From Pinisolibacter aquiterrae (lineage in GTDB: Bacteria > Pseudomonadota > Alphaproteobacteria > Rhizobiales > Ancalomicrobiaceae), in assembly GCF_019160155.1 (NCBI RefSeq), contig NZ_JAFNIH010000030.1, positions 1-64,000 on the forward strand: a stretch of DNA of 64,000 bases, in the 5' to 3' direction. Below the pieces are notes generated by a model. The model did not search any database. It was not told where the DNA came from and saw only the letters and a program-made list of their open reading frames with translations. The translations under genes and the position numbers were made by a program. Shown here in pieces: positions 15,076 through 25,008 of the stretch (its first letter is position 1; the number at the start of each line of letters is the position of its first letter).

Positions 15076-15801
15076 ATGACCGACGACATCCAGCCCTCCG
15101 CCGCCCCCTCCCTCGACCCGCCCCGCGCGCCGGAAGGCTCGGCCGCGGCCGGGGAGAAGACCCGCGCCTCGCTGATCCGGGTCGCTCTCGACCTGTTCGG
15201 CCGCAAGGGCTACGACGCCACCTCGACCCGCGACATCGCCGGCGCCGCCGGGGTCAACATCGCCGGCATCGCCTATCACTTCGGCGGCAAGGCCGGGCTG
15301 CACAAGGCCTGTGGCGAGCTGGTCGCCGGTTTCCTCGGCGAACGATTGGGGATCCTCACCCCCGGCGACCCCGCCACCGACGACGCCTTGTCGGCCGACG
15401 AGGCCGCCGCTCTGTTCGAAGCGTCGATCTCCGACTTCGCCCGGTTCATCCTGTCGCGTCCGGAGGCCGAGGCGATCGCCCGCTTCATGGTGCGCGAACA
15501 GATGGACCCGACCGCGACCTTCGAGATCCTCTACCACGGCCTGATCCGGCCCCGTCACGAGCGGCTCTGCCGCCTGTGGGGCCGCGCCACCGGCGAGGAT
15601 CCGGCGAGCGAGGGGGTGATCATCACCGTCTCCGCGCTGTTCGGGCAGGTCCTGTTCTTCCGCGTCGGTCGCGCCACCGCGCTGCGTCGCCTCGGCTGGG
15701 CCGACATCGACGCGACCAACGTCGAGAAGATCGTCGAAACGGTCCGCGAGAGCACCCGCGCCATGCTGGCGTCGCGGCGCGCGGGGAGGGATCCGTCGTG
15801 A
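15076..15801 (+). CDS. TetR-family repressor of the CecR (YbiH) type
   Basis: 241 residues. The N-terminal helix-turn-helix (about 30-75) contains STRDIAGAAGVNIAGIAYHFGGK, closely matching CecR-type regulators, whose recognition helix reads N-x-A-x-I-x-Y-H-F. A larger C-terminal ligand domain (about 95-235) follows. It is the first gene of a plus-strand operon with an HlyD-like adaptor, ABC ATPase and ABC-2 permease, the same context as E. coli cecR-ybhGFSR, which affects sensitivity to certain antibiotics. Its stop overlaps the adaptor's GTG start (GTGA). It is probably an autorepressor of the operon; the operator was not located. Confidence 0.9.
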   Translation: MTDDIQPSAAPSLDPPRAPEGSAAAGEKTRASLIRVALDLFGRKGYDATSTRDIAGAAGVNIAGIAYHFGGKAGLHKACGELVAGFLGERLGILTPGDPATDDALSADEAAALFEASISDFARFILSRPEAEAIARFMVREQMDPTATFEILYHGLIRPRHERLCRLWGRATGEDPASEGVIITVSALFGQVLFFRVGRATALRRLGWADIDATNVEKIVETVRESTRAMLASRRAGRDPS

Positions 15802-16754
15802 TCGGTTGGCTCTGTTCCCTCGCGATCGTCGGCGGGCTTCTGCCCGGATGCGACCCCACGATCCGCGTCTACGGCTACGTCGAGGGCGAATACGTCGCCA
15901 TGGCGCCGCTCGAGGCGGCCCGCATCGCCTCCGTCGAGGTGCGTCGCGGCGACCGGGTCGAACCCGGCGCCGTCGTCGCCCGCATGGAGACCGACGACGT
16001 CACGATCGCCGTGCGCGACGCGACCGCCCGCCTCGCCCAGGCCGAGAGCGACCTCGCCGATCTGAAACGCGGCCGCCGGCCCGAGGAGATCGACGTCATC
16101 GCCGCGACTCTCGCCTCGGCGCGCGCCCAAGAGATCGACGCCCTGCGCGCTCTCGATCGCCGCCGCGATCTCTTCCAGCGCAAGGTCGCCTCCCAGGCGG
16201 AACTCGATCAGGCCCAGACCACCCGCGACGTCGCCGCCGCGCGCGTCCGCGAACTCGAGGCCAATCTCGAGGTGGCCAAGCTCCCCGCCCGCGACGACGT
16301 CGCCCGATCCGCCGAGGCCCGTGTCGATCAGGCCCGCGCCGCGCTCGCCAACGCCAAATGGCGCCTCGAACAGCGCACCCTGACGGCGCGCGCGCCCGGC
16401 CGCATCGCCGATCTCGTCCGCCGCCCGGGCGAGGTCGCCGGCCCCCAGGCGCCGGTCGTCAGCTTCCTGCCCGACGGCGCGGTGAAACTGAAACTGTGGG
16501 TTCCGGAACCCGCCTTCTCGAAGATCGCGCTCGGCGGCGAATTGCCCGTCGCCTGCGACGGCTGCGGCCCGGGGTTGGTCGCGCGCGTCACCTATGTCTC
16601 GCCGGAGCCGGAATTCACGCCCCCTGTGATCTATTCGGTCGAGACCCGCGCCAAGCTCGTCCACCTCGTCGAGGCGCGTCCCGAGGCCGGTTCGCTCGGC
16701 CGGCTGCGGCCCGGCCAACTCGTCGACGTGACCCTCCCCGGATCGGCGCCATGA
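15798..16754 (+). CDS. HlyD-family periplasmic adaptor, YbhG-type, probable lipoprotein
   Basis: 318 residues from GTG 15798. The first 18 residues form a hydrophobic signal ending LLPGC, a plausible lipobox with Cys18, whereas E. coli YbhG is anchored differently. Then come a split biotinyl-lipoyl domain (about 25-60 and 185-215), a long alpha-helical hairpin (about 65-180, rich in RAQEIDAL- and ARVRELEANLEVAKL-like heptads) and a beta-barrel region. It would link an inner-membrane ABC exporter to an outer-membrane channel. It overlaps the upstream regulator by 4 nt and the downstream ATPase by 4 nt (ATGA). Confidence 0.9.
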   Translation: MIGWLCSLAIVGGLLPGCDPTIRVYGYVEGEYVAMAPLEAARIASVEVRRGDRVEPGAVVARMETDDVTIAVRDATARLAQAESDLADLKRGRRPEEIDVIAATLASARAQEIDALRALDRRRDLFQRKVASQAELDQAQTTRDVAAARVRELEANLEVAKLPARDDVARSAEARVDQARAALANAKWRLEQRTLTARAPGRIADLVRRPGEVAGPQAPVVSFLPDGAVKLKLWVPEPAFSKIALGGELPVACDGCGPGLVARVTYVSPEPEFTPPVIYSVETRAKLVHLVEARPEAGSLGRLRPGQLVDVTLPGSAP

Positions 16755-17689
16755 GCATCGTCTCGGTCCAGGGCCTCACCAAGCGCTTCGGCGACCACAC
16801 CGTGGTCGATCACGTCTCGATGGAGATCGAGAAGGGCGAGATCGTCGGCTTTCTCGGCCCCAACGGCTCCGGCAAGACGACGACCATCCGCATGATCTGC
16901 GGCCTGCTCACCCCCGACGGCGGCTCCGGCACGGTGCTCGGCCACGACGTCCTGACCGAGAGCCGGTCGATCAAGCGCCGGGTCGGCTACATGACGCAGA
17001 GGTTCTCCTTCTACGAGGACCTGACGATCGCCGAGAACCTCGACTTCGTCGCCCGCCTCTACGAACTCTCCCCGCGCCGCGACACCGTCGACCGCACCCT
17101 CGAGAACCTCGGCCTGACCTCGCGCCGCGATCAGCTCGCCGGCACCCTCTCCGGCGGCTGGAAACAGCGCCTGGCGCTCGCCGCCTGCATCATGCACGAA
17201 CCCGACCTGCTCCTGCTCGACGAGCCGACCGCCGGCGTCGACCCCAAGGCGCGGCGCGAGTTCTGGGACGAAATCCATCTCCTCGCCGCCGACGGTCTCA
17301 CGGTCCTGGTCTCGACCCACTACATGGACGAGGCCGAGCGCTGCCACCGCATCAACTACATCTCCTACGGCAAGCTGCTCGCGCGCGGCACGGTCGAGGA
17401 CGTGGTGGCGGGGGCCGGCCTCACCACCTTCGTCGCCCGCGACGCCCCGGCCGATCTCGCCCGCCGCCTGCACGGGCTCCCCGCCGTCGAACAGGTCGCC
17501 CCCTTCGGCGCGACGCTCCACGTCGTCGGCGCCGACGGCGAGCGCCTCGCCGCGACGCTCGCGGGGGTGACCGCCGAGACCGGGATCCGCTTCGAGCGCG
17601 GCGAAACGAGCCTCGAGGACGTCTTCATCCAATTCATGGCCCGCGCCGAGGACAACATGGCCGGAGCGGGGAAGGGGGCGTCGTCGTGA
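16751..17689 (+). CDS. ABC-2 type exporter ATP-binding protein (YbhF-like, single domain)
   Basis: 312 residues with one nucleotide-binding domain: Walker A GPNGSGKT (36-43), signature LSGGWKQR (133-140), Walker B LLLLDEP (153-159), H-loop His190. The C-terminal extension ends DVFIQFMARAEDN, as in drug/polysaccharide export ATPases. E. coli YbhF carries two fused ATPase domains; here there is one, so it should act as a homodimer. It starts inside the adaptor gene (ATGA) and overlaps the permease start (GTGA). Confidence 0.93.
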   Translation: MSIVSVQGLTKRFGDHTVVDHVSMEIEKGEIVGFLGPNGSGKTTTIRMICGLLTPDGGSGTVLGHDVLTESRSIKRRVGYMTQRFSFYEDLTIAENLDFVARLYELSPRRDTVDRTLENLGLTSRRDQLAGTLSGGWKQRLALAACIMHEPDLLLLDEPTAGVDPKARREFWDEIHLLAADGLTVLVSTHYMDEAERCHRINYISYGKLLARGTVEDVVAGAGLTTFVARDAPADLARRLHGLPAVEQVAPFGATLHVVGADGERLAATLAGVTAETGIRFERGETSLEDVFIQFMARAEDNMAGAGKGASS

Positions 17690-18825
17690 TCGATCTCTCG
17701 GTCTCCCGGTCGCGCCTGTGGGCGGTGCTGGTCAAGGAGTTCATCCAGATGCGGCGCGACCGCATCACCTTCGCGATGATGCTCGGCGTGCCGATCATGC
17801 AGCTCCTGCTGTTCGGCTTCGCCATCAATTCCGATCCCAAGGGCCTTCCCACCGCGATCGTCGACATGGACGGCGGCCACTACGCCCGCGCCGTCACCAC
17901 GGCGATGGAGACCTCCGGCTATTTCCGCTTCACCGATCGTCCGGCGACGCTGGCCGAGGGCGAGCACCTGATCGCCTCGGGCGAGGTGCTGTTTCTGGTG
18001 ACCATTCCAGCCGATCTCGGCGCCCGCGTCGATCGCGGCGACGAGCCCCAGATCCTGGTCGATGCCGACGCCACCGATCCCGCCGCCGCCTCCGGGGCGC
18101 TCGGCGCGCTCGGCACCGTCGCGCAGCGCGCGCTGACCCGCGAGAAGGGCGAGGCGGCGGAGGTGGAGGCGCTGCAGAAGAAGCAGCTCTCGATCGTCGT
18201 CCACCGCCGCTACAATCCCGAGGGCGTGTCGCAATACAACATCGTCCCGGGTCTCCTCGGCGTCATCCTGCAGATGACCATGGTGATGATGACCGCCATG
18301 GGCCTGACGCGCGAGACCGAGCGCGGCACCATGGAGAACCTCCTCGCCATGCCCGCGACCCCGGTCGAGATCATGCTGGGCAAGATCCTGCCCTTCCTCG
18401 GCGTCGGCGCGGTCCAGGTGGTGGTGGTGCTGGTGGCGGCGAAGGTGCTCTTCGCCGTGCCCTTCGTCGGCTCGTTGACCCTGCTGATGGCCTCGGTGCT
18501 GACCTTCGTCCTGTCGCTGGTGCTGATGGGCTATTTCATCTCCACCTTCGCCCGCACTCAGATGCAGGCGATGCAGCTGACCTTCTTCTTCTTCCTGCCG
18601 TCGCTGATGCTGTCGGGCTTCATGTTCCCCTTCGACGGCATGCCCGGATGGGCACGGACGATCGGCGAGTGCTTCCCCCTCACGCATTTCCTGCGCATCG
18701 TCCGTGCGGTGATGCTGAAGGGCGCGGACCTTCAGGCGATCGCCTGGGAATGGTCGATGCTCGCCGTCTTCATCGGTCTCTATGCGGCGATCGCGTTGAC
18801 ACGCTTCCGTCAGACCCTCGATTGA
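17686..18825 (+). CDS. ABC-2 type exporter permease (YbhS/YbhR-like)
   Basis: 379 residues from GTG 17686. An N-terminal helix (about 28-48), a long periplasmic domain (about 50-180) and five C-terminal helices give the ABC2_membrane_3 layout. The pattern GVSQYNIVPGLLGVILQMTMV and TRETERGTMENLLAMPATPVEIMLGK before the helices is family-typical. Unlike E. coli, which has paired ybhS and ybhR, only one permease gene is present, so the pump should be a homodimer. The last 56 nt overlap, on the opposite strand, the 3' end of the next gene. Confidence 0.92.
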   Translation: MIDLSVSRSRLWAVLVKEFIQMRRDRITFAMMLGVPIMQLLLFGFAINSDPKGLPTAIVDMDGGHYARAVTTAMETSGYFRFTDRPATLAEGEHLIASGEVLFLVTIPADLGARVDRGDEPQILVDADATDPAAASGALGALGTVAQRALTREKGEAAEVEALQKKQLSIVVHRRYNPEGVSQYNIVPGLLGVILQMTMVMMTAMGLTRETERGTMENLLAMPATPVEIMLGKILPFLGVGAVQVVVVLVAAKVLFAVPFVGSLTLLMASVLTFVLSLVLMGYFISTFARTQMQAMQLTFFFFLPSLMLSGFMFPFDGMPGWARTIGECFPLTHFLRIVRAVMLKGADLQAIAWEWSMLAVFIGLYAAIALTRFRQTLD

Positions 18826-19597
18826 CCCGCCCGTTCACGCCCTTGCGGCGCGGCCGGCGGCGCGGGTGCGCGAGACCGAGCCCGACCAGCCCCGCGAGCG
18901 TCGTGTCCGCGGCCGCGCTCGCGTCGGGCGGCACCGGCAGCGTCACCGCGGACGCCTGGCGTCCGGTCCGCGCCAGCCAGGAATAGCGCACGATCATGCG
19001 ATCCGGATCCCGCGCCGTCGTCACCCCGTCGAGACGGGTCAGCGGCAGCGCCCAGACGTGCAGCACGCCGTTGAAGAGGAGACCGCGTTCGCCGACGATC
19101 ACCCGGCCGTCACGCATCCGCCAATGGTCCTGACGGACCCGTCCGCCGAGAAGATGGGCGAGCCCGGTCAGCGCGGCCACGACGACCGCGATCGCGATCA
19201 TCGCCGGCGCCGCCTCCGGATCGTAGAGGGCGAAGCCGCCGAAGATCACCGCCAGGAAACCCCAGATCAGCAGCAGCGCCTGACGCTTGTCCGCGTTCTC
19301 CTCCGCGAGCGCGCCCGGGGCCGCCGCCGCGAGGGTGGCCGCGTCGACGCTCCAGGCGCCCAGCACCCGTCGCCCCTCGAGCAGTTCCCTGCGCACGGTC
19401 GCCATGCGCGCGAAGAACCCGGCGACGATCAGCGCGGCGATCACCAGGAAGATCGACAGGAAGGTGATCGCGTGCATGTCGAAACCGAACCGGGCGAACA
19501 GCGCGTCCGGATCGATCGCCAAGGCGAGGAACCAGAGACAACCGGCCAGCGCGACCGGCAATGCGGCGTAGACGACTTTCTTCGGATCGGTGAGCAT
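18770..19597 (-). CDS. Hypothetical multi-spanning membrane protein
   Basis: 275 residues, not recognised. Hydrophobic segments are at about 8-28, 41-62, 108-125 and 130-150. A soluble C-terminal domain (about 155-245) contains a PH-like beta pattern (MRDGRVIVGERGLLFNGVLHVW, MIVRYSWLARTG). The tail from about 250 is basic and low-complexity, and its last codons overlap the 3' end of the permease gene in antisense. That tail may result from loss of an earlier stop. It stands alone between two operons. The start ATG 19597 precedes the first helix directly. Confidence 0.7.
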   Translation of the reverse strand: MLTDPKKVVYAALPVALAGCLWFLALAIDPDALFARFGFDMHAITFLSIFLVIAALIVAGFFARMATVRRELLEGRRVLGAWSVDAATLAAAAPGALAEENADKRQALLLIWGFLAVIFGGFALYDPEAAPAMIAIAVVVAALTGLAHLLGGRVRQDHWRMRDGRVIVGERGLLFNGVLHVWALPLTRLDGVTTARDPDRMIVRYSWLARTGRQASAVTLPVPPDASAAADTTLAGLVGLGLAHPRRRPRRKGVNGRVNRGSDGSVSTRSPHRDR

Positions 19598-19781
19598 GGC
19601 TTCTGCCTCCGCTCGGAGCGGGAGACCGACGTTCTTCGCGTAAGATGAATTGGTCCGTCCTCATCCCTCCCTCGAGTTGTGCCACGATCAGGCCGCCGCG
19701 ACCTTGACCGAAGTCGGGTCGCCGGTGGCGCGAGGCTCGAGACGGAAGAAAAGGAGAGAGGGGAGGTCGAGAGAACCGGCC

Positions 19782-20996
19782 TCACCCGGCGATCCGCACC
19801 AGCGACACCAGCACCGCCGCGAAGATCGCCGAGGTGATGACGCCGGAGATGTTGGCCCCGAGCGCATGCGGCATGATGATCGAGTTGGGATTGCTCTTCG
19901 TCACCAGCTTCTGCGCCACCTTGGCGGTGGTCGGCACGCAGGAGACGGCCGCGATGCCGATCACCGGATTGTATTTGCCGCCCGACAGGAAATAGAGCAC
20001 GTAGCCGCCGGCGAGCCCGCCGATCGCCGAGAAGGTCAGCGCCAGGATGCCGAGGATGAGCAGGATCAGGACCTTCGGGTCGAGGATGGTGCTGGCTTCG
20101 CAGAGCACGCCGAGCACCAGCCCGAGGAAGAAGGTCGCGCCGTAGAGCATCTGGTTGGAGAACAGCTCGTAGAAGTACTTCAAGCCGGATTCCCGCACCA
20201 CCACGCCGAGGAACAGCGACAGGAACAGCGGCGCCGCGACCGGGAACAACAGCGACAGCACCACGCAGGTGATCACCGCGAACACCATCTTCTCGCCCGA
20301 GGAGATCTTGCGCACCGTCTCCGCCGGCATCTCGATGGCGCGGATCCGCTCCGGCACCAGCGCCTTCACGATGTAGGGATAGCCGCCGTAGGTGAGCCCC
20401 AGATAGAGGTAGCCGACCACCGTGATCGGCACGAAGATCTCCGGCGCCAGCACCAGCGAGGCGAACAGAACCATCGGTCCGTCGGCGCCGCCGATGGTCG
20501 CGGTCGCGGCGGCCTGATTGAGCGGCAGGCCCATCCACCAACCGAGCGGGAAGGTGATCAACGTGCCGATTTCGGCGCAGATCGCCAGGAACATCGAGCG
20601 GAACGGCCGCGCCATCACGAAGCCGACGTCGAGCAGCGTGCCGATGCCGAGAAACACCAGACAGGCGATCAGACCGTTGGAGAAGGTCAGTGAATAGATC
20701 GGCTGCAACCAGTCGATCTGCATCTGCGTCATCACCTGATCGTTGGTGGTGGCGAGCGGATCGAGGAACAGCGTGCCGACCTTGCCGCCGTTGAGGTGGA
20801 GCACGCCGGCGTTGACCGTCGCCATGCCGAGCCCCATCGGGATCATCAGGAGCGCCTCGAGGATCCCCTTGTAGCCGAGATAGATCAGCAGGAAGCCGAG
20901 CAACATCAGCCCGATCCGCCCGATCATGATGTGGGTGGGGGCGGCGGCCAGGGTCGCGATGCCCTGGAACATGTCGAGGAAGGAGAGGTCCGGCAC
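19782..20996 (-). CDS. Na+-translocating decarboxylase beta subunit (OadB/MmdB type)
   Basis: Membrane subunit that decarboxylates carboxybiotin and pumps Na+ outward. 404 residues from GTG 20996, chosen because GGAGG lies 7 nt upstream. There are many helices. Conserved blocks are the ATIGGADGPMVLFAS motif with its key Asp, and SGGKYNPVIGIAAVSCVPTTAK plus PHALGANISGVI near the end, which carry the conserved Asn/Ser/Tyr positions; the usual HAMGPNV reads HALGANI here. It follows the gamma-type gene on the same strand. The carboxyltransferase and biotin carrier are encoded divergently at 21965-23984, so together they form a complete pump. Confidence 0.93.
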   Translation of the reverse strand: MPDLSFLDMFQGIATLAAAPTHIMIGRIGLMLLGFLLIYLGYKGILEALLMIPMGLGMATVNAGVLHLNGGKVGTLFLDPLATTNDQVMTQMQIDWLQPIYSLTFSNGLIACLVFLGIGTLLDVGFVMARPFRSMFLAICAEIGTLITFPLGWWMGLPLNQAAATATIGGADGPMVLFASLVLAPEIFVPITVVGYLYLGLTYGGYPYIVKALVPERIRAIEMPAETVRKISSGEKMVFAVITCVVLSLLFPVAAPLFLSLFLGVVVRESGLKYFYELFSNQMLYGATFFLGLVLGVLCEASTILDPKVLILLILGILALTFSAIGGLAGGYVLYFLSGGKYNPVIGIAAVSCVPTTAKVAQKLVTKSNPNSIIMPHALGANISGVITSAIFAAVLVSLVRIAG

Positions 20997-21067
20997 GGGT
21001 GATCCTCCGCGAGATCCGAGGCGCCTCGACCATGGCCGGGAGGCGCGTTCGGCCCGTCGTGTCCGCG

Positions 21068-21424
21068 TTATTGATGGGGGTGATGCGATCCGTGATGGCG
21101 CTGGCGCACCTCTCCGGTCCAACCGCCCATCGGCTGCGTCTCGCCGATGTAGACGATGCGCCCGGCGCCGGAAACGGCCTGCACCGCCGCCGCGATCGCG
21201 GCGACGACGGCCGGGTCGAGACCTCGGGCCGCCTCGGGCGCGACCGTCGGCGGCCGCGCCGCCACCGGCGCGGGAACCGCCGCGGCGCCGACGCGACGAC
21301 CCATCGCCGCCAATCCGGCGACGAGGGCGGCGACGAAGCCGGCGGTGGCCATCGCGATCACGGCCATCAGGCCGTAGGCGAAGAAAGACGTGGCGATCAC
21401 GTCGCCGAGTCCTTGTGTGGGCAT
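21068..21424 (-). CDS. Na+-pump decarboxylase small membrane subunit (OadG/MmdD type)
   Basis: 118 residues: one N-terminal membrane helix (about 11-38), an Ala/Pro-rich flexible linker (45-68), then a short C-terminal domain with GRIVYIGETQPMGGW and a histidine-rich tail (His at 110, 111, 114, 115, 117). OadG-type subunits assemble the complex and some bind zinc through C-terminal histidines, so the tail may be a metal site. It lies 71 nt upstream of the beta subunit on the same strand. Its leader contains two stem-loops (21434-21513), described separately. Confidence 0.8.
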   Translation of the reverse strand: MPTQGLGDVIATSFFAYGLMAVIAMATAGFVAALVAGLAAMGRRVGAAAVPAPVAARPPTVAPEAARGLDPAVVAAIAAAVQAVSGAGRIVYIGETQPMGGWTGEVRQRHHGSHHPHQ

Positions 21425-21964
21425 GATGCGGAACGCCCCCTCGCGTTCGTTTCATGGGGCGGTGGCGCGCCTCATGGTCCCCTGCGACTCGCTCGGGATC
21501 GTGAGGCGCCACCGTCACGATTTCGCCCCGAGCCTAACCGAGAGGACGCCGGTCACAAGTGGGAACTCTCCCGATGCCGCGCCGCACACCGCCGGCCCGC
21601 CGCTCCACGCCGTCGCCGCCGTGCGCGGAACGGCTGTAATTTCAATTGGAAAGCCGAGCGGCGCCGGACGCGTCCACCCGCCTCGGGGCTGTCACGATTG
21701 GCGCTACTACGAGGGCGAGCATCGCCGATCGCGGCCTTTTCGGCCGGAGCCCCCGTGGAGAACCCCCATCAGGGCTGACCCCAAGAGAAGCGCATCGGCG
21801 ACGCGATTATTATTTCACCTCGAACGAACCGCGTCGCGCGGGGCTCGATCCCTCGAGGGAGCCTGCCCCGCGATCGCTTTCCGGGACAGGGGACCACGCC
21901 TCGAACGGGGGTTGAGGTCGGCCGGCGCGCGGGGGATGATCGCCGACGAGGAGGCGCGTGATCG
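21425..21964. other. Long divergent intergenic region between the two halves of the Na+-pump locus
   Basis: 540 bases without a credible gene; the short open frames have no ribosome sites or family features. It must hold the promoters for oadG/oadB (leftwards) and mmdA (rightwards). The left 90 bases form two stem-loops in the oadG leader. The middle (21640-21660) holds an AT-rich patch taatttcaattgg, and 21808-21820 another (gattattatttca), both plausible promoter DNA. No known riboswitch (cobalamin, glycine, SAM) was recognised. Confidence 0.5.
21434..21513 (-). promoter_or_regulatory. Paired stem-loops in the oadG leader
   Basis: On the minus strand GGTGGCGCCTCA (complement of 21502-21513) pairs with the complement of 21461-21474 with a 2-nt bulge, around a loop of about 27 nt. 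A second stem then pairs CGCCCC with GGGGCG (21434-21461). The latter contains the GAGGGGG that is the likely ribosome site of oadG, so translation could be masked. The structure is read by eye only. Confidence 0.4.
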
Positions 21965-23518
21965 ATGACACTACCCGTTGAATTTCTGGACGACTTGAAA
22001 CGGCGCCGCGATGCGGTATTCGCCGGGGGCGGCGCCGACAAGATCGAACAACGACACGCCAAGGGCATGCTGACGGCGCGCGAGCGCCTCGACACGCTGT
22101 TCCAGGAGGGGACCTTCCAGGAGATCGGCACCCACGCGCGTCACTCCGCCCGATTCTTCGGGATGGAGGGCAAGGATCTGCCGGCCGACGGCGTCGTCGT
22201 CGGCACCGGCTACGTCGGCGGCCGACTGGTGGCCTCCTTCAGCCAGGACTTCACCGTCGCCGCCGGCACGCTCGGCAAGATGCACGCCAAGAAGATCGTC
22301 GCCGTGATGGAAGCGGCGGTCAAACTCGGCGCGCCGATCGTCGCCTTCAAGGATTCCGGCGGCGCCCGCATCCAGGAGGGCGTCGACGCGCTCTCCGGCT
22401 ACGGCAACGTCTTCTATCAGAACGTCCTTCTGTCCGGCGTGGTGCCACAGATCGCGGTGATCTGCGGGCCCTGCGCCGGTGGCGCGGCCTATTCGCCGGC
22501 GCTGATGGACTTCGTGATCATGACCCGGAAGAACGCCTACATGTTCATCACCGGGCCCGAGGTCATCAAGGCGGTGACCGGCAAGGCGGTCACGATGGAG
22601 GAGGTCGGCGGCGCCGACATGCACGCGGCCGTCTCCGGCAACGTCCATTTCCTCGCCGAGGACGACGCCGACGCCATCCGCATCGTCCAGCGGCTGCTCT
22701 CCTTCCTGCCCTCCAACAACACCGAGGATCCGCCGCACCATCCCGGCCCCGCCATCTCGCTCGCCGAGGACGAGGAGATGCGCCACCTGATCCCCGACGA
22801 CGGCTCCAAGCCGATGGACGTGCGCGCCGTGATCGAACGTCTGGTCGACCCGGGCGAGTTCCTCGAGGTCCATCGCTCCTTCGCGGAGAACCTGATCGTC
22901 GGCCTCGGCCGGATCGAGGGCATGGTGGTCGGCATCGTCGCCAATCAGCCGGCGGTGCGCTCGGGCGCGCTCGACATGGACGCCTCCGACAAGGGCGCCC
23001 GCTTCATCCGGTTCTGCAACACCTTCAACATCCCGTTGGTGACGCTCGTCGACGTCCCCGGCTTCCTGCCGGGCATCGAGCAGGAACGCGGCGGCATCAT
23101 CCGTCACGGCGCCAAGCTCCTCTTCGCCTATGCCTCGTCGACCGTGCCGAAGATCACCATGATCCTGCGCAAGGCCTATGGCGGCTCCTATCTCGCCATG
23201 TGCAGCCAGGAGATGGGCGCCGACTTCGTCTTCGCCTGGCCGACCGCCGAAATCGCCGTGATGGGCGCCGAGGGCGCGATCAAGATCCTCTACAATCGCG
23301 AACTGAAGGCGGCCGAGGATCCCAAGGCCATGGCCGCGGAACTGGCACGCAACTACCGCGCCGAATTCGCCTCGCCCTATCTCTCCGCCGGCGCCGGCTA
23401 CATCACCGACGTCATCGATCCCGCGATCACCCGCTCGACCATCGCGTTGTCGCTGCGCAAGGCGGTGTCGAAGCGCGAATTCCGTCCGCCGAAGAAGCAC
23501 GGCAACATTCCGCTGTGA
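21965..23518 (+). CDS. mmdA: Methylmalonyl-CoA decarboxylase alpha subunit / carboxyltransferase (MmdA/PccB-like)
   Basis: 517 residues of the acyl-CoA carboxyltransferase family (two crotonase-fold halves). It moves the carboxyl group from an acyl-CoA, probably methylmalonyl-CoA, to biotin. Conserved oxyanion regions are SGGARIQEG (131-139) with GPCAGGAAYSPAL (168-180), and in the second half VDVPGFLPG and KAYGGSYLAM. Alone it could be a propionyl-CoA carboxylase beta chain. However, no biotin carboxylase gene is present, while a separate biotin carrier gene follows and the Na+-pump beta and gamma genes are divergent, which favours the decarboxylase. The start has GAGGAGG about 10 nt upstream. 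Confidence 0.9.
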   Translation: MTLPVEFLDDLKRRRDAVFAGGGADKIEQRHAKGMLTARERLDTLFQEGTFQEIGTHARHSARFFGMEGKDLPADGVVVGTGYVGGRLVASFSQDFTVAAGTLGKMHAKKIVAVMEAAVKLGAPIVAFKDSGGARIQEGVDALSGYGNVFYQNVLLSGVVPQIAVICGPCAGGAAYSPALMDFVIMTRKNAYMFITGPEVIKAVTGKAVTMEEVGGADMHAAVSGNVHFLAEDDADAIRIVQRLLSFLPSNNTEDPPHHPGPAISLAEDEEMRHLIPDDGSKPMDVRAVIERLVDPGEFLEVHRSFAENLIVGLGRIEGMVVGIVANQPAVRSGALDMDASDKGARFIRFCNTFNIPLVTLVDVPGFLPGIEQERGGIIRHGAKLLFAYASSTVPKITMILRKAYGGSYLAMCSQEMGADFVFAWPTAEIAVMGAEGAIKILYNRELKAAEDPKAMAAELARNYRAEFASPYLSAGAGYITDVIDPAITRSTIALSLRKAVSKREFRPPKKHGNIPL

Positions 23519-23539
23519 GATCATTCGACCATCTGGAGC

Positions 23540-23575
23540 CGGGACGATCGCGCCTCGAGTGCGGGTCGTCCCGGT
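23540..23575 (+). promoter_or_regulatory. Intercistronic hairpin between mmdA and the biotin carrier gene
   Basis: CCGGGACGA (23540-23548) pairs with TCGTCCCGG (23567-23575), a 9-bp perfect stem with an 18-nt loop, between the mmdA stop and the carrier start. It may set the ratio of the two subunits or stabilise the upstream message. Confidence 0.5.
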
Positions 23576-23594
23576 CGACCGACGAGGACCCTCC

Positions 23595-23984
23595 ATGCAC
23601 AAGCATTTCAAGATCAGCGTCGACGGACGCGCCTATGACGTGATCGTCGAGGAAATCGCCTCCGACGGCACCGCTCCCATGCCGGCCGCTCCGGTGGCCG
23701 CCGCCTCGGCGGTGGCCCGGGCCGAGGCCTTCGCCGCGCCCTCCGCGCCGACGCCCCCGATCGCCGCCGGCGCCGGCTCCCAGGTCGCGCCGCTCGGCGG
23801 CGTGATCGATTCGATCGCCGTCACGGTCGGCACCGTCGTCGCGGTCGGCGACCTCCTCGCCGTCATCGAGGCGATGAAGATGAAGACCGAGATCCTGGCG
23901 CGCGTCTCCGGCACGGTCGCCGCCATCCCCGTCCAGGTCGGTCAGGCGGTCGACGCCGGCGCCGTCCTGGTCGAGATCGCCTGA
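23595..23984 (+). CDS. mmdC: Biotin carrier subunit of the Na+-pump decarboxylase
   Basis: 129 residues: an N-terminal segment MHKHFKISVDGRAYDVIVEE typical of these carriers, an Ala/Pro-rich swinging linker (about 26-60), and a C-terminal biotinyl domain (about 62-129) with the biotinylation motif EAMKM, biotinyl lysine K95. It carries CO2 from the MmdA active site to the membrane beta subunit. The start ATG 23595 is 76 nt after mmdA. No biotin ligase is encoded nearby. Confidence 0.93.
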   Translation: MHKHFKISVDGRAYDVIVEEIASDGTAPMPAAPVAAASAVARAEAFAAPSAPTPPIAAGAGSQVAPLGGVIDSIAVTVGTVVAVGDLLAVIEAMKMKTEILARVSGTVAAIPVQVGQAVDAGAVLVEIA

Positions 23985-24066
23985 GGATCCCCCTCGGCAT
24001 CGACGCCGGCGCGGCGGAAGGCATCCCGCCGGGGTGTCGTCCGGCTTCGGCGCGCCCGCCGGTCGC

Positions 24067-25008
24067 TCAATAGCCGCGGTCGCGCGGCACCGCTCCGAGC
24101 AGGGGCAGCCCCGCGACCAGACGGCGGGCATCCTCGGCGATCGAGCCGACGATGGTCTCGAACCCGGCCTCGGCGGCGTCGTGCGACGTCACCAACACTT
24201 TCGGGTGGGTCCAGAACGGATGATCGCTCGGCAGCGGCTCGACCGCGAAGACGTCGAGCGACGCCCCGCCGATCGGTCCGGTCTCCAGCGCCGCGAGCAG
24301 CGCCGCCTCGTCGAGATGGGCGCCGCGTCCAACCTGGATCAGCACCGCGCCTTGCGGCATCCGCGCGAACAGGTCGGCGGAGAGAAGCCCGCGCGTCTGC
24401 GCCGTCAGCGGCAGCAGATTGACCAGGAAATCGGCCTCGCCGACCACCCGTTCGAGACCCTCCGCGCCGGTCTCGAGCCGAACCCCGTCGATCGCGCCGG
24501 AGGTCGTGCGCGCCCAGCCGATCACCCGGAAGCCGAGCGCCAGCAGCGCCTCGGCGCTCGCCCGCCCCATCAGGCCGAAGCCGAGGATGCCGACCGTCAC
24601 CGTCGAGGGCGCGTGATGGGAGAGCCGCTCCCAACGCCGCGCCGCCTGATGGGCGAGCCGCTCGCGGAACCGGCGATGCCACCACAACACGTTCCACACC
24701 ACGTGCCCGGCCATGATCTTGGCCTGTTCGGGATCGCGCACCCGCGTCACCGGCACGTCCGGAAGGCTCGAGGCGGCGACGATCCCGTCGATGCCGGCGG
24801 CGATCGAGGCGACCATGCCGAGCGCGGGGTAGGGGAGGAAGGCGTCGTCGGCCGGCTCCCAGCAGACGGCGAACCGCACCGCGCCGGGATCCTCGATCCG
24901 ATCGGGCGCGCGCAGGTCGAGATCGGGCGCGAGCCGGGCGAAGGTCTCGCCGAAGATCGCCTCGAGATCGATCGAACGCGACAGGTAGACGCCGGGAATG
25001 CGGGTCAT
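24067..25008 (-). CDS. NAD(P)-dependent 2-hydroxyacid dehydrogenase, GhrA-like (glyoxylate/hydroxypyruvate reductase A type)
   Basis: 313 residues of the D-isomer 2-hydroxyacid dehydrogenase family. The Rossmann glycine motif is GILGFGLMG (140-148) and the catalytic triad is R228 (VGRGAHLDE), E257 (VEPLP) and H276 (SHDAAEA). Absence of a C-terminal ACT domain, and the HVVWNVLWWHRRF segment, fit the GhrA group, which reduces glyoxylate and hydroxypyruvate; the true substrate is not shown. It is the last gene of the minus-strand catabolic block but is separated from the M20 gene by 130 nt with a strong hairpin, so it may have its own promoter. Confidence 0.88.
   Translation of the reverse strand: MTRIPGVYLSRSIDLEAIFGETFARLAPDLDLRAPDRIEDPGAVRFAVCWEPADDAFLPYPALGMVASIAAGIDGIVAASSLPDVPVTRVRDPEQAKIMAGHVVWNVLWWHRRFRERLAHQAARRWERLSHHAPSTVTVGILGFGLMGRASAEALLALGFRVIGWARTTSGAIDGVRLETGAEGLERVVGEADFLVNLLPLTAQTRGLLSADLFARMPQGAVLIQVGRGAHLDEAALLAALETGPIGGASLDVFAVEPLPSDHPFWTHPKVLVTSHDAAEAGFETIVGSIAEDARRLVAGLPLLGAVPRDRGY

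Follow-up and report, generated by a model that had tools for sequence, protein, structure and literature searches.

The window analyzed here was a 64,000-nucleotide stretch of the Pinisolibacter aquiterrae genome (contig NZ_JAFNIH010000030.1, positions 1 to 64,000), and the locus of interest was a group of four genes at positions 19782 to 23984. Judging by their sequences, these genes very probably encode a complete acyl-CoA decarboxylase that depends on biotin, pumps Na+, and most likely acts on methylmalonyl-CoA. The membrane half was on the minus strand, where the gene for a 118-amino-acid small subunit (21068 to 21424) was followed by the gene for a 404-amino-acid membrane subunit, beta (19782 to 20996, with a GTG start at 20996 and the stop at 19782). 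The soluble half was on the plus strand, where the gene for a 517-amino-acid carboxyltransferase (21965 to 23518) was followed by the gene for a 129-amino-acid biotin carrier (23595 to 23984, ATG start). A divergent control region of 540 bp (21425 to 21964) separated the two halves. An earlier, sequence-only reading of this DNA had described a complete decarboxylase split into divergent units 540 bp apart, and the sequence and gene calls placed all four open reading frames at the positions claimed. The same divergent layout was found in both other genomes of the genus that were examined (G009 and G010), in which the beta subunits were 85 to 89% identical and the carboxyltransferases 84 to 88% identical, with the G009 beta gene interrupted by a contig end. 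Because the layout recurred in both of these genomes, the divergent unit was considered to be more than a chance arrangement. Between the window and G010, the ratio of nonsynonymous to synonymous change (pN/pS) was lowest for the carboxyltransferase (0.24), followed by beta (0.34), the small subunit (0.48), and the carrier (0.74).

The carboxyltransferase matched the Pfam family Carboxyl_trans with 603 bits. The carrier, which contained an EAMKM motif and an Ala/Pro linker, matched Biotin_lipoyl with 54 bits; in NCBIfam, it scored 91 bits against NF005117 and 76 bits against the MmdC model NF047903, both below their cut-offs. To place the carboxyltransferase, a tree was built from 81 of 82 rows (L059, a copy of L035, was left out), and only sequences with more than 440 query residues matched were admitted, so broken and partial sequences were excluded. 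The tree separated 72 decarboxylase-type sequences from nine PccB sequences with support of 100/100; the decarboxylase clade was defined by operon partners, and none of the rows was a biochemically proven Mmd. Thirteen positions distinguished the two types. At position 410, Leu was present in 70 of the 72 decarboxylase-type rows, including that of the window, and Asp was present in seven of the nine PccB rows. This position aligned with residue 422 of Streptomyces PccB, a residue with a role in substrate choice. The two closest PDB relatives of the carboxyltransferase were tied; they were the 12S methylmalonyl-CoA transcarboxylase (645.6 bits) and a Thermotoga protein deposited as a propionyl-CoA carboxylase (645.2 bits). 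The genome contained six matches to the carboxyltransferase, including the window copy and a PccB-like copy that was 52% identical to it. The sequence-only reading had named a grouping of the window enzyme with PccB as the outcome that would tell against a pump; the tree placed it with the decarboxylase type, and the PccB of this genome was another gene, located beside a biotin carboxylase gene.

The membrane subunit matched the Pfam family OAD_beta with 357 bits. Its best NCBIfam model was TIGR03136, the malonate-pump subunit, with 496 bits (below the cut-off of 597), and it scored 200 bits against the general pump model TIGR01109, just above the cut-off of 191. In sequence it was 50% identical to the MadB protein of the L041 mad cluster (in G009, a member of the genus) and 28 to 29% identical to the OadB-like beta subunits of three relatives. 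By these comparisons, beta is MadB-type rather than OadB/MmdB-type. Like the MadB of the genus, it lacked the Arg304 of oxaloacetate decarboxylase (OAD), but it differed from Malonomonas-type MadB in failing to reach the TIGR03136 cut-off and in having an acyl-CoA carboxyltransferase as its partner. A true malonate decarboxylase was rejected on the NCBIfam results. No mad genes were present among the genes adjoining the unit in the window, and the rest of the genome was not searched for them. The L041 locus (G009:C129, 482 to 9991) was itself a Malonomonas-type biotin-dependent malonate decarboxylase cluster with a MadL/MadM transporter; among the six proteins of this cluster that were compared with NCBIfam, MadA-like (955 bits), acyl carrier protein (119 bits), MadL (126 bits), MadM (360 bits), and MadB (762 bits) each scored above their cut-offs.

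The only PDB sequence relative of beta was the Salmonella OAD beta subunit (E value of 5.9e-42). The predicted fold (mean predicted local distance difference test score [pLDDT] of 76) resembled that of the OAD beta-gamma structures (6iww/6iva), and 6iww ranked first in the structure comparison (6iww_A; Z score of 39.7 and root mean square deviation of 4.5 over 369 residues); an AspT antiporter ranked second, with a Z score of 18.4. Sequence identity over the structural alignment with OAD beta was 33%. The window subunit kept the equivalents of Salmonella OAD residues E40, D203, Y229, N373, S382, N412, and S419. According to the portions of PMC7274780 available to us, mutagenesis identified D203, S382, and N412 as Na+ binders, S382A abolished Na+ binding, and R304A and N311A caused only moderate inhibition.

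The beta sequences fell into a MadB-type group (beta1) and an OadB-type group (beta2). Among the 74 aligned rows, D203 was conserved in 62 of 62 beta1 rows, 11 of 11 beta2 rows, and the one MadB row. S382 was present in all 62 beta1 rows. Arg304 was found in 11 of 11 beta2 rows versus one of 62 beta1 rows. In five beta2 rows (Siculibacillus, G009, G057, and the Magnetococcales loci L118 and L129), the S382 position held Ala and the next residue was Ser; five other beta2 rows kept the Ser, and one was cut at this point. The five beta2 loci with a natural Ala at the essential Na+-site Ser382 were L037, L040, L045, L118, and L129.

For the small subunit, we aligned 21 sequences that were hand-picked from a larger number of loci, with L066 read out of frame. 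The alignment showed a hydrophobic N-terminal stretch, an Ala/Pro-rich middle, and a C-terminal tail. The tail pattern W....R.....SH was present in 17 of the 21 sequences from the window and its relatives, including small subunits of both types (gamma1 and gamma2), and was missing in L063, L066, L072, and L110; the stricter form W..E.R..H..SH was present in nine of 21, and the window small subunit carried such a tail. No Pfam or NCBIfam match was obtained, and the putative OadG/MmdD-like scaffold assignment was made because of the position of the gene and this tail pattern.

A collection of 84,980 genomes was scanned for relatives of beta, which yielded 523 stretches, and the best 80 of the 523 were kept. 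These included Accumulibacter, Propionivibrio, Sulfuritalea, Rhodoferax, Dechloromonas, Defluviicoccus, Blastochloris, Rhodoplanes, Magnetococcales, Kineosphaera, and others. The carboxyltransferase gene was upstream of beta on the same strand in 65 of these 80 relatives and divergent in one, which was G010 itself (L059). In six of the 80, the membrane genes had no carboxyltransferase gene despite at least 3.5 kb of upstream sequence, and eight started too near beta for gene order to be judged. Divergence was seen only in the window's genus, in three of three genomes examined. Among 385 evenly sampled genomes of the class, 20, including that of the window, had any beta match, and four (the window, G162, G341, and G358) had a match of at least 68% identity. 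In the family, four of 15 genomes had a beta match, and the same four had a decarboxylase-type carboxyltransferase; one family member was Siculibacillus lacustris (G014), classified as Ancalomicrobiaceae in NCBI.

These data changed parts of the picture given by the sequence-only reading, which had treated such a pump as out of place in an aerobic-type alphaproteobacterial background and had taken one operon as the rule. Close relatives of beta occurred in Defluviicoccus, Blastochloris, Rhodoplanes, and several Rhodospirillales records, which does not support treating such a pump as an oddity in this group. The aerobic-type label also fell, since the genome encoded PFL, PFL activase, and AdhE. 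As for the operon rule, the text available from PMC11575231 and PMC3035267 places the Xylanibacter ruminicola mmd genes and the Acidaminococcus fermentans glutaconyl-CoA decarboxylase (gcd) genes, respectively, at two loci.

The trees of the two halves were in conflict. In the carboxyltransferase tree, the window's genus nested with Siculibacillus and G057, both of which had their enzyme in beta2 operons (support of 100/100). In the beta tree, the beta1 of the family grouped with Blastochloris, a Xanthobacteraceae strain, and a Defluviicoccus (95/82). Matched 38-row trees were built from 34 of 46 matched loci (four long branches and eight near-copies were taken out) and the four family genomes. 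In approximately unbiased (AU) tests, the carboxyltransferase data rejected a grouping of the family with its five nearest-beta1 relatives (p-AU of 0.001), and the beta data rejected a grouping of those five relatives without the family (p-AU of 0.008). The 74-row beta tree kept 74 of 105 rows (copies, fragments, and 24 near-identical loci were left out); this tree, which included the beta2 rows, was set aside in favor of the matched trees, as long branches met in it and MadB fell beside one Rhodoferax row.

Gene arrangements in the family were examined alongside the trees. Siculibacillus had a single decarboxylase-type carboxyltransferase, encoded in an operon with the order carboxyltransferase-gamma2-carrier-beta2, in which beta2 was OadB-type. 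It also had a separate gamma1-beta1 pair, with no carboxyltransferase gene in the 14 kb examined, and the beta of this pair was 85% identical to that of the window. In addition to the divergent unit, G009 had a gamma2-beta2 pair that lacked a carboxyltransferase gene. No second beta was found in the window's genome or in G010.

The control region provided a further point of comparison. A 68-bp stretch (21764 to 21831, plus strand) was shared with the sequence that precedes the carboxyltransferase operon in Siculibacillus, with a score of 39, which none of 200 shuffles reached (best shuffle, 34); for G010, the result was narrow (34 versus a best shuffle of 33). Two blocks, defined from an alignment of this region in the three genus members, lay on the minus strand on the membrane-gene side, block 1 at 21554 to 21574 and block 2 at 21634 to 21646. 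Neither block had a good match upstream of the lone Siculibacillus gamma1-beta1 pair, where the best matches were 11 of 20 for block 1 and eight of 12 for block 2. A likeness of the control region to the gamma2/beta2 region of G009 had been spotted by eye and was dropped as not significant (73 of 200 shuffles).

The conflicting trees suggest that the carboxyltransferase and carrier descend from a pump with an OadB-type half (gamma2/beta2) and now stand beside a MadB-type half (gamma1/beta1) that was inherited separately. On the simplest account, the soluble genes retained their promoter and were joined back to back to the MadB-type half, so that the divergent unit looks like a re-plugged pump and its layout is proposed to be derived. 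Descent of the membrane and catalytic halves from different ancestral pumps is supported by these sequence comparisons but not settled. Several points weigh against it. The family and its five relatives did not form a clade in the best beta tree; such a tree was 9.7 log units worse, which did not amount to rejection (p of 0.109). In addition, the groups for the AU tests were picked after the trees had been seen, so the p values are optimistic. The upstream match failed for G009, for which 82 of 200 shuffles reached the score, and in one other of the 24 upstream comparisons (the window versus the G057 operon), the score of 32 likewise exceeded that of every one of the 200 shuffles (best shuffle, 30). 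The latter was taken as a composition effect, as the match lay elsewhere, in a 22-base GC-rich run.

The sequence-only reading had asked for subunit phylogenies as a check for transfer. The carboxyltransferase and beta trees did yield a conflict, and transfer as its cause has a serious rival in duplication and loss alone, by which an ancestor with both membrane halves would have had them rearranged in the genus and no genes would have passed between lineages. Siculibacillus and G009 carried both membrane halves with one decarboxylase-type carboxyltransferase, as this account expects (the G009 assembly was 94% complete and 6% contaminated). Against it, the beta1 of the family was nearest to those of Blastochloris, the Xanthobacteraceae strain, and the Defluviicoccus, whereas its carboxyltransferase was not. 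We regard duplication and loss alone as a substantial possibility that falls short of being our preferred explanation.

The idea of separate ancestry can be carried further, to a modular pump. In the evolution of this family, and perhaps also within its cells, the tail common to the small subunits might let one soluble half (carboxyltransferase and carrier) attach to either of two membrane halves. One membrane half would be MadB-type with the usual Na+ site, and the other OadB-type with Ala at Ser382. Siculibacillus and G009 would carry both as alternative pumps. In the genus, the soluble half, with a promoter of its own, would have been set back to back with the MadB-type half, and the window strain and G010 would have lost the OadB-type half. 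Because the OadB-type half has Ala at Ser382, the two membrane halves may differ in ion or affinity. The exchangeability of the halves is something we infer from the gene arrangements and trees, and we put the modular pump forward tentatively. Further hints came from other loci. L061 (Xanthobacteraceae) had one carboxyltransferase gene followed by carrier-gamma1-beta1 and then a second set consisting of a small gene, a carrier, and beta2; L106 (Opitutaceae) had one carboxyltransferase with both beta1 and beta2; and L118 and L129 (Magnetococcales) had two beta1 genes and one beta2 gene in a row, with no carboxyltransferase gene within the stretch examined.

The sequence-only reading had also called for a search for mutase and epimerase genes, and both were present in the genome. 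Contig C59 encoded a methylmalonyl-CoA mutase (large subunit, 1291 bits, above the cut-off; small subunit, 397 bits, below the cut-off), and contig C55 encoded a methylmalonyl-CoA epimerase (162 bits, above the cut-off). Contig C12 encoded a crotonyl-CoA carboxylase/reductase (Ccr; 611 bits), beside which was a second mutase taken, by its place, as ethylmalonyl-CoA mutase. The genes for PFL, PFL activase, and AdhE were in one stretch, each scoring above its cut-off, and the genome was considered to be equipped for fermentation because these three proteins were encoded. At this locus (L199, contig C22:1-9000), the genes for PFL activase, PFL, a pyruvate kinase-like protein, a GAPDH-like protein, and AdhE stood in a row; the kinase-like and GAPDH-like names were read from the sequence by eye. 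Just behind the mutase pair on contig C59 (L186, 14316 to 18999) were genes named by eye as NiFe hydrogenase-like small and large subunits, a maturation protease, and a sensor kinase.

The families, predicted fold, ion-site residues, and carboxyltransferase tree supported the complete four-part pump that the sequence-only reading had proposed. In such a pump, the carboxyltransferase would move the carboxyl group of (S)-methylmalonyl-CoA onto the biotin of the carrier. The loaded carrier would swing to beta, which would decarboxylate carboxybiotin and export Na+, and the small subunit would tie the soluble enzyme to beta. With the mutase and epimerase, succinyl-CoA would be converted to methylmalonyl-CoA and then to propionyl-CoA, and energy would be saved as a Na+ gradient under oxygen limitation. 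We infer assembly into one complex, the substrate, Na+ as the ion, the direction, and the regulation from these data; by sequence, Na+ and methylmalonyl-CoA are the likely ion and substrate. As a whole, a four-subunit methylmalonyl-CoA Na+ pump with a derived divergent layout is the explanation that we consider probable.

Some findings tell against this assignment. Neither the carboxyltransferase (747 bits against a TIGR01117 cut-off of 999) nor the carrier reached any curated cut-off, and the small subunit had no family match at all. The TIGR01117 'mmdA' model scored the genome's own PccB higher than the window enzyme (760 versus 747 bits), and this score was dropped as substrate evidence, with position 410 considered a better hint. 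Leu410 may be compatible with several acyl-CoA substrates, malonyl-CoA included. At the ion site, the N412 position was variable in beta1 (Asn in 37 of 62 rows, Ser in 24, and Gly in one), and the residue equivalent to Salmonella OAD R304 was Tyr in the window beta. No NQR or RNF was found in the genome, and thus no user of a Na+ gradient was identified. A second ATPase operon with N-type gene order (beta, epsilon, two small membrane proteins, a, c, b, alpha, gamma) was located at L198 (contig C22, approximately 405.8 to 412.4 kb), and an F-type c subunit was encoded on contig C24. The N-type operon was likely present, but nothing was built on it as a Na+ user, as the Burkholderia pseudomallei N-ATPase rotor is described as H+-specific in the accessible part of PMC5376962.

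The pump might use another acyl-CoA by the same mechanism, either malonyl-CoA or, as a by-product from the ethylmalonyl-CoA pathway, ethylmalonyl-CoA. The Leu at position 410 in place of the Asp of most PccB rows, the MadB-type beta, and the presence of Ccr are all consistent with this. However, the mutase, epimerase, and PFL fit a methylmalonyl-CoA route, and the 12S methylmalonyl-CoA transcarboxylase was one of the two closest PDB relatives, albeit tied with the Thermotoga propionyl-CoA carboxylase entry; we therefore consider another substrate unlikely. Operation mainly in reverse, with a Na+ gradient driving ATP-free carboxylation of propionyl-CoA, seems more improbable still. The ethylmalonyl-CoA pathway yields propionyl-CoA. 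Reversal of pumps of this kind is in print, judging by the title of a 1984 paper by Dimroth and Hilpert listed among the references of PMC7274780. Against reversal, the PccB gene of this genome adjoined a biotin carboxylase gene, and no NQR/RNF pump was found.

Five biotin carboxylases were encoded in the genome, and by gene calls each adjoined or was fused to other carboxylase parts. The first (contig C33, L048) was beside PccB, and the second and third (contigs C11, L188, and C22, L189) were each beside their own carboxyltransferase; family models were run on these three loci only. The fourth (contig C55, L190) was behind a carrier gene and was taken as AccC, and the fifth (contig C59, L191) was part of a 1149-amino-acid protein taken as pyruvate carboxylase. 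None of the five stood alone; the sequence-only reading had named a biotin carboxylase partner elsewhere using this carrier as a further outcome that would tell against a pump, and this check came out in the pump's favor. A single AccC-type biotin carboxylase can work with two or more partners, so pairing by place leaves sharing possible, a further point on the side against the pump. The carboxyltransferase tree and the neighbors of the biotin carboxylases led us to reject a PccB-plus-carrier carboxylase. It is very improbable that the membrane genes are unrelated neighbors and that the carboxyltransferase and carrier belong to an acyl-CoA carboxylase whose biotin carboxylase is encoded at another locus: the halves were on opposite strands and six of the 80 relatives had membrane genes without a carboxyltransferase, but the tree set the enzyme apart from PccB, all five biotin carboxylases had other parts beside them, the layout was kept in three of three genus genomes, and the carboxyltransferase and beta genes shared a strand in 65 of the 80 relatives.

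The surroundings of the unit were also inspected. At 15076 to 18825 on the plus strand, the window encoded a CecR-like regulator, an ATP-binding cassette (ABC) exporter, and a protein that looked like an adaptor but had no Pfam match at 1e-10. A 275-amino-acid membrane-like open reading frame without a Pfam or NCBIfam match, at 18770 to 19597 on the minus strand, overlapped the end of an ABC-2 exporter gene. Apparently the same CecR-like/adaptor/ABC exporter cluster was near the pump genes in G009; the G009 unit was inverted relative to these exporter genes, and the neighbors in G010 differed. A sigma-70 scan of 19500 to 24300 gave no sites and was uninformative, as 0.3 were expected in shuffles, and an Rfam scan of the window at the gathering threshold gave no matches.

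Decarboxylase pumps of this kind, and split loci, are already in print. The Na+-translocating (S)-methylmalonyl-CoA decarboxylases (Mmd) of Veillonella parvula and Propionigenium modestum likewise consist of a carboxyltransferase, a biotin carrier, a membrane decarboxylase, and a small scaffold, of which the window small subunit is the putative counterpart. However, the Mmd beta is OadB-like in what could be consulted of PMC7274780, and characterized Mmd enzymes are encoded in one operon in the corresponding part of PMC11575231, whereas the window has a MadB-type beta and two divergent units. The glutaconyl-CoA decarboxylase of A. fermentans (PMC3035267) and the X. ruminicola Mmd (PMC11575231) also have the carboxyltransferase and membrane subunit at separate loci, but, as far as the excerpts of these papers go, the loci are apart rather than back to back across one common control region. 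A search of the open-access literature returned no paper describing a methylmalonyl-CoA pump with a MadB-type beta or pumps that exchange their halves, which is weak evidence of absence.

Thus, the locus appears to hold a known function in an uncommon form, with the pump reading strong and the swap of halves supported but not settled. What is unusual, by sequence comparison, is the MadB-type beta, the divergence limited to one genus, and the conflicting trees of the halves. One practical consequence is that labels based on TIGR01117 only can mislead, as a PccB outscored a decarboxylase-type carboxyltransferase. If confirmed, the decarboxylation Na+ pump would be added to the energy converters whose halves are exchangeable, and nature would have supplied a pair of membrane halves that differ at an essential Na+-binding residue, so that ion choice would be directly testable. 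Among the best 80 of the 523 stretches, relatives of the MadB-type beta also came from Accumulibacter, Propionivibrio, and Defluviicoccus, which are phosphate- and glycogen-accumulating bacteria of wastewater. For such bacteria, methylmalonyl-CoA decarboxylation has been proposed to generate an ion gradient under anaerobic conditions, in the available parts of PMC9041414, PMC4930944, and PMC12604563. In these parts, methylmalonyl-CoA decarboxylase genes are reported for Defluviicoccus and Propionivibrio, a Na+ or proton motive force is proposed for acetate uptake, and the genes named could be of the beta1 or beta2 kind. PMC9041414, in the part available, cites Burow 2008 for Na+ extrusion by methylmalonyl-CoA decarboxylation in Defluviicoccus and gives the process as absent from Accumulibacter, yet relatives of the window beta occur in Accumulibacter records.

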